From: Phycisphaerales bacterium
GTDB lineage: Bacteria > Planctomycetota > Phycisphaerae > Phycisphaerales > SM1A02
Length of the DNA stretch: 44,134 bases
Direction of reading: 5' to 3'
Assembly: GCA_022447205.1 (NCBI GenBank)
Contig: JAKVBQ010000026.1
Coordinates: 1-44,134, forward strand
Below are positions 1,209 through 4,442 of the stretch, piece after piece; within the stretch, counting starts at the first letter, position 1; each line of letters begins with the position of its first letter. The notes beneath the pieces are model-generated. The model did no database searches and had not been told where the DNA came from. It saw only the letters and a list, made by a program, of their open reading frames with translations. The translations under genes and the position numbers were made by a program.

Positions 1209-4200
1209 TCATCGACCCGTGTTGGTTTGCTCGCCCGGGCCCACTCGACGGATGCGTCCGCCATAGAGCGTTCTTGGCTTCTGAGGGGCTTGCTTGGGTT
1301 CCTTGGCGGCCACGGAAGTCGTCTTCTCCTTCGGGGGAGCGTCGGCCTTCTTGCCCTGATCGGTCCGGGGTTCCTGGGGGGAGTCACTGCTCGAACCCTC
1401 GCCGTCACCATCATTGCGGTTGCGTGAACGCCTCCTTGAGCGACGACGCTTGGGTTTCGATTCGACATCGCCAGCTTCGCCCGTCGTGTCCGTTTCGGAA
1501 GCCTGTTCGGCGGAAGGTGCCTCCGAAGATCCCTCCTCGGTGGACCGTTCGCCATCGGCTTCCGTGTCGGCATTCCCGCGGCGCCTGCGACCACGCCTTC
1601 TTCGGCGTCGCTTGCGGGGCGCATCCCCGTCTTCCTTCGGGGTTGCTTCCTCGTCGTTTTCGGCTTCCGGTTCCTTCGTCTGCGGTTCCTCGTCAGCGGA
1701 TTCGCCCGACTCCGGCGTCTGGTCATCCTCGCTGCGGTTCCTGTTGCGACGGCCACGCCGTCTTCGACGTCGCTTTCTGCGGCCTCCGCCGTCCTCCGAA
1801 TCCTGTCGTTCCTCGCCATCCTCGCTTGCTGCCGGGTCGGAGGTGTCTGACGTGGTTTCCGGTTCTTCCTGTGGCTTGAACCAGTTTCGAATGGTCAGGA
1901 TCGACTCGCCCGAGACCGAGGACATGTGGTTCTTCACCTCGATGTCCGTGCTTTCCGCACACTTGTCGAGGATCTCTCGCGAGGTCACGCCGAGCTCCTT
2001 TGCGAGCGCGTGTATGCGAATCGGCTCGAGTGTCGCGGGATCCGGATCCTGGGACTTGCGTCTTCGGTTGCGCCGACCTCTTCGGCGTCGTCGCTTTCGT
2101 CCGCCACCCTCGTCCTTCTCGTCCTCGGAACCTGAAGCCTGATCCCCACCCTCAGTCTTGATGTCCTCGTCCTCTTCCTCTTCGATGTCGAATCCGCCGG
2201 CAAGTGCGATCGCCGTCGCGTCCGCAGGAGCGGTCTTGCCACGGCGCCTTCGCCGTCGCTTGCCCGTCTTGCGGTCTGCGGCGGCGGCCTTGAGATCCTC
2301 TTCGTCGAGGGATTCCGGGAACTCGTCGAAGTCGGGGAACTTTCGGCGGCCCTTCTTCTTCACCTCGATGTCGGCGCCCTGGCCGTCATAGGCGTAGAGG
2401 TCGACCCGATCGTTCGGCATCGTTTCGCTGACCCGGACGGCGATGCTCTTCTGGAATCGTTCCTCGAGCACCGCGATCGTCTTGCGTCGGTCGTTCATGA
2501 GGGCGGAGGCCACCTCACTCGAGCAGACGAGTTCGACGGTCTTTATCACTTCATCGTCGAGGACCGCGGCGGCTCTTCGGATCGCATCAGCTGCAACGGC
2601 ATCGACACGAAGCAGCACGCCTCGACCCGAGCAGGTGGAACAGGTGTCGTAATTCGCCTTCTGCGTGTTCGGTCTCATGCGCTGGCGCGTCATCTCGACG
2701 ATGCCGAACTCGCTGATGGGAAGCACCGTGGTCTTGGCGCGGTCCCTGCCGAGGTTCTTGACCAGGCGGGCTTCGATGTCCTGCCGGTGCTTCTGCTGGC
2801 GCATGTCGATCAGGTCGTTGATGATGACTCCGCCGAGATCCCTCAGGCGAAGTTGCCGACAGATCTCGTCGACCGCTTCGATGTTCGTCTCGTAGGCATT
2901 GCTTTCCGAGTCCTTGGCCGAGCGGCTTCGTCCGCTGTTCACGTCGATGGCGACGAGCGCTTCGGTCTGCTGGATGACCAGTGCTCCCCCCGACTTCAAC
3001 GGGACCGTCTCCTCGTGGATCTGGTCGATCTGGCGTTCGACGTCGTAGGCGCTGAAGATCGGCATGCTCTGGTCGTAGTACCTGACGTCCGGGGCGGAAC
3101 GAGGGGCCGCCACCTTCAGGAAGCCGGTGGCTCGCTCGAATGCCGATGGATCGTCGATGAGAATGCGGGTCACCGTCGAGTCGACGACGTCCCTGATCGT
3201 CCTGATGAGGACATCGCTTTCCGCGTAGAGGAGGCAGGGGGCTCCGGTATTGCTCTTGCGCCGGTCGATCTGCTCCCACAGCCTGTTGAGGTAGGCGACG
3301 TCCCGCTTCAGCTCCGCCTTCGATGCCTTGAATCCGGCGGTTCGGACGATGAAGCCGAAACCTTCCGGGAGATCCAGCGAGTCGAGGATTTCCCGCATCG
3401 ACTTGCGTTGGTCGTCGTTCGCGACCTTCCGGCTCACGCCGACCCGGTCCATGTTCGGCATCATGACCATCAGGCGGCCCGGAATCGAGAGGTAGCTGGT
3501 CAGGGTCGGTCCCTTGGAACCGATGCCCTGCTTGAGGACCTGGACGAGGATCTCCTGCCCCTTGGTGAGGGCATCCTGGATCGGAGGACGCTGGCGGCGG
3601 GGGATCTTCTTGCCGACCTGTTCCACCATCGAGTCACCGGGGAAGTACTGGGGGTGCAGGTCCGAGACGTGGAGGAAGCCTGATTCGCCCAACCCGAAAT
3701 CGACGAATGCAGCCTGGATCGCCGGTTCGATGTTGGTGACTCTGGCCTTGTAGATGTTGCCCACGACGGTTGCGCTCGAGGAGCGTTCGACGAAGTATTC
3801 ATCGAGTCGGTTCTGGTCGAGGATCGCGATGCGACATTCCTCTCCCGGGACCTCGTTCACCACGAGGAGTCGGTTTTCGGGTGCCGATGAATCGGTCGCA
3901 TCAGGCAGGGCTCTCGTGGACCGCCCCCAGGAGTTGGTCCTGCGGCCGTCGCGAGGCTTGTCGCTCTTCTTCCTGGAGCGCTTGTCGGTCTTCTTGTCGC
4001 CGGTCTTCTTGGTGGTCTTCTTGGCAGCGGCCTTCTTCGAAGTCTTCTTGGCAGCGGCCTTCTTCGAAGTCTTCTTGGCGTCGACCTTCTTGGTGGTCTT
4101 CTTGGCAGCAGCCTTCTTGGTGGTCTTCTTGGCAGCAGCCTTCTTGGTGGTCTTCTTGGCAGCGGCCTTCTTGGTGGTCTTCTTGGCAGCGGCCTTCTTG

Positions 4201-4442
4201 GTGGTCTTCTTGGCGGCAGCCTTCTTGGTGGTCTTCCTGGCAGCGGCCTTCTTGGTGGTCTTCTTGGCAGCAGGGGAGTCCGATGTCGCTGCGGGGACAG
4301 CCTCCGGCTTTGATGCAGCCGTCCCGGATGTCTTCGTACTCTTCTTCTTGCCGGCCGACCTGGCCTTCTTGGTTACCGGTGATGATCCGGAGGTGTCAGT
4401 GTCGGTCGTGTTGTCCTGGGTCTGTCGCTTCCTGCGATCCAC
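1209..4442 (-). CDS. rne: Rne/Rng family ribonuclease (RNase E/G) with basic N-terminal repeats and an IF2_N-like domain
   Basis: Endoribonuclease of mRNA decay and rRNA processing, 1077 residues. Residues 57-146 are ten copies of a nine-residue AAAKKTTKK-type repeat, like a histone H1 tail. An S1 RNA-binding domain follows (about 222-320; GNIYKARVTNIEPAIQAAFV, FLHVSDL). The catalytic DNase I-like region has D500 in VAIDVNSGR and D543 in INDLIDM, matching the two metal-binding aspartates of E. coli RNase E (D303, D346). The Zn-link is CSTC at 601-604. The rest is acidic and arginine-rich low complexity (KRRRRRR blocks), interrupted at about 806-855 by a segment closely resembling the IF-2 N-terminal domain. 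The start is GTG at 4440-4442, with AAGGAG seven bases upstream. dxr follows 27 bases after the stop. The catalytic part is certain. The tails are unusual, and a degradosome scaffold or RNA/nucleoid-binding role for them is inference. Confidence 0.93.
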   Translation of the reverse strand: MDRRKRQTQDNTTDTDTSGSSPVTKKARSAGKKKSTKTSGTAASKPEAVPAATSDSPAAKKTTKKAAARKTTKKAAAKKTTKKAAAKKTTKKAAAKKTTKKAAAKKTTKKAAAKKTTKKVDAKKTSKKAAAKKTSKKAAAKKTTKKTGDKKTDKRSRKKSDKPRDGRRTNSWGRSTRALPDATDSSAPENRLLVVNEVPGEECRIAILDQNRLDEYFVERSSSATVVGNIYKARVTNIEPAIQAAFVDFGLGESGFLHVSDLHPQYFPGDSMVEQVGKKIPRRQRPPIQDALTKGQEILVQVLKQGIGSKGPTLTSYLSIPGRLMVMMPNMDRVGVSRKVANDDQRKSMREILDSLDLPEGFGFIVRTAGFKASKAELKRDVAYLNRLWEQIDRRKSNTGAPCLLYAESDVLIRTIRDVVDSTVTRILIDDPSAFERATGFLKVAAPRSAPDVRYYDQSMPIFSAYDVERQIDQIHEETVPLKSGGALVIQQTEALVAIDVNSGRSRSAKDSESNAYETNIEAVDEICRQLRLRDLGGVIINDLIDMRQQKHRQDIEARLVKNLGRDRAKTTVLPISEFGIVEMTRQRMRPNTQKANYDTCSTCSGRGVLLRVDAVAADAIRRAAAVLDDEVIKTVELVCSSEVASALMNDRRKTIAVLEERFQKSIAVRVSETMPNDRVDLYAYDGQGADIEVKKKGRRKFPDFDEFPESLDEEDLKAAAADRKTGKRRRRRRGKTAPADATAIALAGGFDIEEEEDEDIKTEGGDQASGSEDEKDEGGGRKRRRRRGRRNRRRKSQDPDPATLEPIRIHALAKELGVTSREILDKCAESTDIEVKNHMSSVSGESILTIRNWFKPQEEPETTSDTSDPAASEDGEERQDSEDGGGRRKRRRRRRGRRNRNRSEDDQTPESGESADEEPQTKEPEAENDEEATPKEDGDAPRKRRRRRRGRRRRGNADTEADGERSTEEGSSEAPSAEQASETDTTGEAGDVESKPKRRRSRRRSRNRNDGDGEGSSSDSPQEPRTDQGKKADAPPKEKTTSVAAKEPKQAPQKPRTLYGGRIRRVGPGEQTNTGR
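4005..4274 (-). repeat. 27-bp tandem repeat, ten units, coding for lysine-rich nonapeptides in rne
   Basis: Ten consecutive 27-base units encode (P/A/V)(A/D)AKKT(T/S)KK nonapeptides inside the RNase E N-terminus. Five central units are identical at protein level; the outer ones carry R-for-K, VD-for-AA, PA-for-AA and T-for-S changes. The array stays in frame and is therefore a coding minisatellite, not a CRISPR or an intergenic repeat. Such arrays change copy number by slippage, so the length may vary between strains. Confidence 0.9.

Follow-up and report, generated by a model that had tools for sequence, protein, structure and literature searches.

How the enzymes of mRNA decay meet ribosomes is an open question. 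It is raised by a gene for RNase E in the stretch of 44,134 nucleotides that was analysed here (the window; GenBank assembly GCA_022447205.1, contig JAKVBQ010000026.1, from a Phycisphaerales bacterium). The protein was noted to carry, in its arginine-rich tail, a small stretch resembling the N-terminal domain of translation initiation factor IF-2. What is this stretch, how widely is it kept, where does it come from, and what could it do in a ribonuclease?

The features of the gene and its product are compiled in Table 1. The protein belongs to the RNase E/G family: the NCBIfam model TIGR00757 (Rne/Rng) gave 471 bits (cut-off 325.95), PF10150 likewise scored above its cut-off, an S1 domain was found, and the translated sequence shows the catalytic motifs IDVNSGR and NDLIDM. 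These motifs presumably hold the catalytic Asp pair, an assignment that we carry over from E. coli RNase E. When the core was compared by BLAST with 80 of the at least 117 RNase E loci obtained by a pattern scan across bacterial genomes, it matched a Planctomycetales contig best (405 residues, 47.9% identity). The Lys/Ala-rich N-terminal tail yielded weak HC2 and histone H1-like matches below the cut-offs of Pfam and NCBIfam. A catalytic core with a long charged tail is also seen in the degradosome RNase E of E. coli and of Caulobacter, whose tails bind partners; to our knowledge, these tails contain no IF2_N domain. Uncut RNase E frames in the family of the window genome comprise about 790 to 1376 residues, compared to 509-588 in a table row for Planctomycetes that we read as RNase E/G lengths (PMC3071783, 2011).

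Table 1. Features of the RNase E/G gene and the encoded protein (window coordinates)
Feature	Residues	Position	Strand	Basis or remark
RNase E/G gene		1209..4442	minus	1077 aa, GTG start; open frame 1111 aa
Lys/Ala-rich N-terminal tail, TTKKAAAKK-type repeats	29-163	3954..4358	minus	translation read
S1 RNA-binding domain	227-304	3531..3764	minus	Pfam PF00575, 28.2 bits, cut-off 22
RNase E/G catalytic core	319-589	2676..3488	minus	Pfam PF10150, 320.4 bits, cut-off 25.5
RNase E/G thioredoxin-like domain	600-680	2403..2645	minus	Pfam PF20833, 40.4 bits, cut-off 26.8
Linker motif PADATAIALAGGF	739-751	2190..2228	minus	translation and family comparison
Arg-rich block preceding IF2_N	782-796	2055..2099	minus	sequence read
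IF2_N, folded stretch	about 804-856	1875..2033	minus	Pfam match 1899-2027 and fold
Arg-rich block following IF2_N	888-903	1734..1781	minus	sequence read
Two more Arg-rich blocks	943-956 and 996-1009	1416..1616	minus	sequence read
C-terminal motif KPRTLYGGRIRR	1055-1066	1245..1280	minus	sequence read

The preliminary description had placed an IF2_N-like domain at about residues 806-855, between Arg-rich blocks, and had proposed a profile search, a structure prediction and a survey of RNase E proteins. Both the domain and its position were confirmed. In the whole protein, PF04760 (IF2_N) matched residues 806-848 significantly (37.4 bits, E 2.2e-9, cut-off 25.3), and Arg-rich blocks lie on either side. 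The 50-residue stretch alone (residues 806-855, window 1878-2027, minus strand) scored 44.1 bits, and the domain was matched with 42.5 bits in a six-frame search of the genome. This genome (3.25 Mb, 86 contigs) contains three copies of IF2_N, two in IF-2 on contig C1 and one in RNase E. The Pfam list for the window protein at E <= 1 comprised only RNase_E_G, RNase_E_G_Thio, IF2_N, S1 and a sub-threshold HC2, and thus neither a GTPase nor any other IF-2 domain. The protein is not itself an IF-2: GTPase and C-terminal IF-2 domains are missing from this list, and IF-2 is encoded on contig C1. With a profile of 22 RNase E IF2_N domains, IF-2 chains were retrieved from the PDB (E 3.8e-12). What the window protein carries in its charged and weakly conserved tail is an IF2_N domain; in other respects it is a normal RNase E.

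Structure prediction yielded the IF-2 N fold. AlphaFold2 was supplied with a shallow alignment of four rows, the window stretch and three mycobacterial sequences. The best model consists of three helices and two short strands (pLDDT 80.1, pTM 0.58), with block means of pLDDT between 82 and 91 across the first 50 residues; the remaining four models had pLDDT values of 77.3, 68.3, 65.6 and 55.5. Foldseek alone returned no match at E <= 0.001 for this model, and its top ranks went to DNA-binding domains, one of plasmid partition and that of RacA; IF-2 (4b43) came fourth (E 0.18, probability 1.00, TMq 0.68, rmsd 1.6). In a second structural comparison, which is a re-ranking of Foldseek's best chains, the top five matches were crystal structures of IF-2 (1-363) with Z 8.4-8.6, 64-65 aligned residues and rmsd 2.2-2.4; for 4b44, the values were Z 8.6, rmsd 2.3 and 64 aligned residues. 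We take 4b44 and 4b3x to be structures of Thermus IF-2. The N2 domain of P. aeruginosa IF-2 on the 30S subunit (PDB 7uiu) gave Z 6.3 and rmsd 2.0 over 52 aligned residues. For the domain of a mycobacterial RNase E (best model pLDDT 77.1), IF-2 was the best match as well, with Z 9.0. The fold of the window domain is also similar to that of DNA-binding RacA/MerR domains, and with Z near 8 it is not decisive on its own, though sequence and fold agree.

In order to determine how widely the domain is kept, it was searched for together with RNase E in 41 near relatives and then in 61 genomes of the same family, which span 40 genera; four genomes of the first set (G010, G011, G014, G024) lie outside this sample. 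Matches in the 61 genomes were paired by contig, strand and distance after removal of two rows that were fragments of RNase E (G238 C168, G223 C7). G218 had no RNase E match, so 60 genomes were counted; G239 was counted once despite its two RNase E genes, one of which is almost identical to that of G022, perhaps by contamination. An IF2_N domain follows the catalytic core in frame, 553-937 nt downstream, in 46 of the 60 genomes. Seven further genomes contain a diverged copy after the core, chosen by eye (G002, G006, G017, G219, G220, G228, G242). IF2_N was matched in none of the six stretches tested (from G002, G006, G017, G219, G220 and G242; that of G002 differs from the one in A4), and the local A2 and seed profiles detected none of the seven. 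These copies were nonetheless kept as homologous on account of a profile-profile comparison with the domain (probability 90.3, E 1.5e-6). In three genomes the arrangement is cut by contig ends or split, with the domain on another contig (G226), a split over two contigs (G223) or an end at the contig edge (G231), and no domain was found in four (G009, G204, G217, G240).

Beyond the family, three local profiles detected the domain in none of 16 order-mates from five other families. The phylum-wide part of the survey, with 148 genomes, is suggestive only: by the counts per genome, the window genome alone had more than two IF2_N matches, the survey included a single genome of the family, and IF2_N was paired with RNase E among the matches listed. 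Most sampled members of the family have thus kept the domain. In a tree of the catalytic core, the family (44 rows) is separated from the 16 order-mates (97/91), and the seven diverged copies group together (84/95). The label of an intact domain requires five changes on this tree, so the simplest reading is one old gain, with the domain present in the family ancestor and subject to decay and losses later.

The constraint on the domain was compared with that on its surroundings by means of 27 family sequences, using mean pairwise identity and the unaligned fraction. The values were 0.38 and 0.04 for the IF2_N domain, 0.33 and 0.34 for the first linker, 0.24 and 0.47 for the second linker, 0.17 and 0.69 for the N-terminal tail (61 of 351 pairs comparable), and 0.66 and 0.00 for the catalytic core. 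Across the family, the domain is barely more identical than the first linker. When the window genome is compared with a genus-mate, identity is 0.80 in the domain and 0.62, 0.40 and 0.53 in the three tail regions. Across 22 RNase E domains from both lineages, that is, the planctomycete family and the Mycobacteriales described next, two positions never vary, Ala11 and Ser18, and 20 domains have Lys or Arg at position 19; Ser18 and residue 19 belong to the turn that joins the first and second helix. The window domain is slightly acidic, with 6 Lys and Arg and 8 Asp and Glu residues.

The statement that this domain belongs to IF-2 in known proteins proved too narrow, since part of the Mycobacteriales has a copy in RNase E that exceeds the Pfam cut-off. 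Of the at least 117 loci from the pattern scan, 93 show the N-terminal end of the RNase E frame and 78 both ends. A first home-made profile, seeded with 3 RNase E and 16 IF-2 sequences, performed weakly and gave way to hand-anchored seeds. The loci were searched with a profile of window-family RNase E domains and planctomycete IF-2 N1 (the first N domain). Among the loci listed, five gave a match, all from Mycobacteriales (L149, L156, L160, L182, L233); they are five of the seven Mycobacteriales loci with a visible N-terminal end, and the domain was found in none of the 24 other actinomycete loci with a visible N-terminal end. In L182, IF2_N and the RNase E core are in different frames. The Pfam cut-off was passed in two of four mycobacterial loci tested, the other two scoring 21.4 and 20.1 bits. 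The isolated window domain matched positions 21-65 of NF052588, the NCBIfam model for mycobacterial RNase E, with 18.6 bits.

In a sample of 41 Mycobacteriales genomes, RNase E was found in 40. The pairing covered all RNase E rows, the nine Pfam rows sharing the RNase E frame and all rows of profile A3, in which the sequence of the centre genome itself is included. IF2_N in the same frame was detected in 9 of the 40 by Pfam and in 11 by A3, located 1039-1714 nt upstream of the core in the latter; the other 29 gave no match even with A3. The domain therefore occurs in part of the Mycobacteriales and not in the whole order. A 'predicted N-terminal scaffold domain' has been described for M. smegmatis RNase E, and the construct used in vitro lacks residues 2-145 (PMC10641625); neither 'IF2' nor 'initiation factor' was found by a term search of the main text of that paper. 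Judging from related species, residues 2-145 should include IF2_N. Because Pfam scores some mycobacterial copies above its cut-off, these are probably already contained in domain databases. Neither of the two fusions of RNase E with IF2_N was found described in the titles, abstracts and passages of open-licence literature that were searched.

The origin of the domains was assessed with three profiles, representing planctomycete IF-2 N1, actinomycete IF-2 N1 and planctomycete IF-2 N2. The window domain scored 58.7, 35.1 and 6.6 bits, respectively, and is thus closer to N1. It shares with N1 (PF04760; 4b44, 4b3x) a profile match above cut-off and the predicted fold, and differs in its location amid Arg-rich blocks of an RNase E tail. 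Planctomycete N1 was preferred to actinomycete N1 by 19 of 20 RNase E domains of the family (mean 40.3, 29.9 and 2.9 bits for the three profiles), although the planctomycete N1 profile includes IF-2 rows of this family and is somewhat favoured for it; the exception is G022, with 11.7 versus 20.3 bits. All four mycobacterial RNase E domains preferred actinomycete N1 (mean 44.9 bits) to planctomycete N1 (16.6 bits), with -0.8 bits for N2. A tree of the domains placed the mycobacterial RNase E copies with actinomycete IF-2 N1 (94/87). This tree is weak, with only 52 columns, excludes the incomplete G011 and leaves most family rows unplaced; it was set aside as evidence of origin in favour of the profile scores. 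The mycobacterial domain lies upstream of the core and the window domain past it. Together with the profile preferences, this opposite placement makes two captures likelier than one, and the copies look like separate captures. In the ancestor of the planctomycete family, N1 of its own IF-2 would have been duplicated into the RNase E tail.

A candidate function is suggested by IF-2 itself. Residues 266-312 of P. aeruginosa IF-2 (N2) form a three-helix bundle on helix h16 of 16S rRNA, with Ser277, Val278, Lys279 and Arg259 as the main interface (PMC9192638). A 2026 preprint locates N2 of IF-2 alpha in the minor groove of h16, with the part upstream of Ser294 not resolved; N1 is not resolved on the ribosome, and N2 is the domain seen on h16 (PMC13345285). 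In an alignment with the PDB structure, residues 277-279 fall in this same turn of the fold, where the RNase E domains are conserved most strongly along with a few other places; only 5 of the 22 domains, though, have Lys or Arg at the position equivalent to Lys279. N2 on the 30S shoulder (PDB 7uiu) has the same fold and serves as our docking model, but differs in sequence type, as seen from its low scores with the family domains. The RNA degradosome is reported to cut mRNA in 30S initiation complexes, and binding to polyribosomes is cited in the same source (PMC12820379).

A link between mRNA decay and the ribosome through IF2_N of RNase E is plausible, because the homologous N2 docks on h16 (PMC9192638, PMC13345285). 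Taking together N2 docking, the conserved turn and degradosome action on the 30S subunit, we tentatively favour the reading that IF2_N is a docking module, most likely for the small subunit. The domain and the flanking Arg-rich blocks would help RNase E to sit on the small subunit or the initiation complex, via rRNA or via a partner bound by the N domains of IF-2, and mRNA might then be cut during translation or when translation fails. That part of the Mycobacteriales appears to have captured such a domain separately argues for a use common to both lineages. Points against docking are the N1 type of the domain, its slight acidity, the rarity of a basic residue in place of Lys279, the similarity of the fold to RacA/MerR domains, an identity across the family hardly above that of the first linker, the 11 family genomes in which it is diverged (seven) or missing (four), and the 29 of 40 Mycobacteriales genomes that gave no match. 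A wider proposal would have RNase E acquire N1 from its own lineage's IF-2 at least twice independently, as a ribosome address tag that docks the enzyme on ribosomes during initiation, both in one family of planctomycetes and in part of the Mycobacteriales; we regard it as possible but doubtful. The apparent move of a domain from IF-2 to a decay enzyme in two distant lineages points to a specific, removable contact.

Two close rivals of docking have to be weighed. The domain may be a scaffold element that binds a protein partner, such as one that also meets IF-2 N1 or a member of the RNase E complex, and has no role of its own at the ribosome. In E. coli RNase E, the C-terminal region is described as such a scaffold (PMC3071783), and an island of fixed length that is not basic within a poorly aligned tail would suit this role; no partner is known, however, and the sister domain N2 docks on the ribosome through rRNA, so we consider this rather unlikely. 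Less probable still, and in our view distinctly unlikely, is a generic RNA-binding or condensate-promoting module that adds valency to the Arg-rich tail irrespective of ribosomes. The flanking Arg-rich blocks agree with it, as do reports that the disordered N-terminal region of IF-2 and Caulobacter RNase E phase-separate (PMC11838494), whereas neither a fixed length nor conserved turn residues are needed for valency driven by disorder, and the domain is slightly acidic.

A neutrally captured gene piece that drifts in a tolerant tail might account for the diverged and missing copies, but is quite improbable given retention in 46 of 60 genomes across 40 genera, conserved fold positions and a domain of the same kind in a second lineage. 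A single origin, with IF2_N ancestral in RNase E or a fused gene transferred between planctomycetes and mycobacteria, would explain why both lineages combine the same two parts, but is very improbable because the domains lie on opposite sides of the core, each resembles IF-2 N1 of its own phylum, and the domain is absent from the 16 order-mates and, among the loci listed, from the 24 other actinomycete loci with a visible N-terminal end.

Several further observations were made during the searches. Four Xanthomonadales-type loci (L141, L142, L155, L172) gave matches near the C-terminal end of RNase E/G with 3.2-3.9 bits (E 0.24-0.40), which were discarded as noise, as were still weaker ones. 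In one Mycobacteriales genome (G274; C2:1835224-1835994), an RNase E frame of 1305 residues contains two IF2_N-like copies according to A3. Two other loci of the Mycobacteriales sample (L290 3-707, minus strand; L291 538-1395, plus strand) have an IF2_N-like stretch at the start of a protein that is neither IF-2 nor RNase E; one of them adjoins a gene for a DnaB-like helicase, as named by reading the sequence. In L140 (Planctomycetales) and L184 (Acidobacteriaceae), the N-terminal S1 region of RNase E was seen by eye to hold several hundred charged residues. Five genomes of family f45 (G098, G110, G120, G140, G147) show the core match in two parts in the same frame (profile positions about 1-130 and 121-269), which looks like an insertion of about 70-150 residues in the catalytic domain. 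Within the family of the window genome, many RNase E proteins have variants of the linker motif PADATAIALAGGF, which follows the thioredoxin-like domain. Most complete proteins of the family end, by eye, with an RR(S/T)LYGxxxRR-like motif, represented in the window protein by KPRTLYGGRIRR; its LY form was also seen in 8 of the 16 order-mates, and it may be a partner-binding site.
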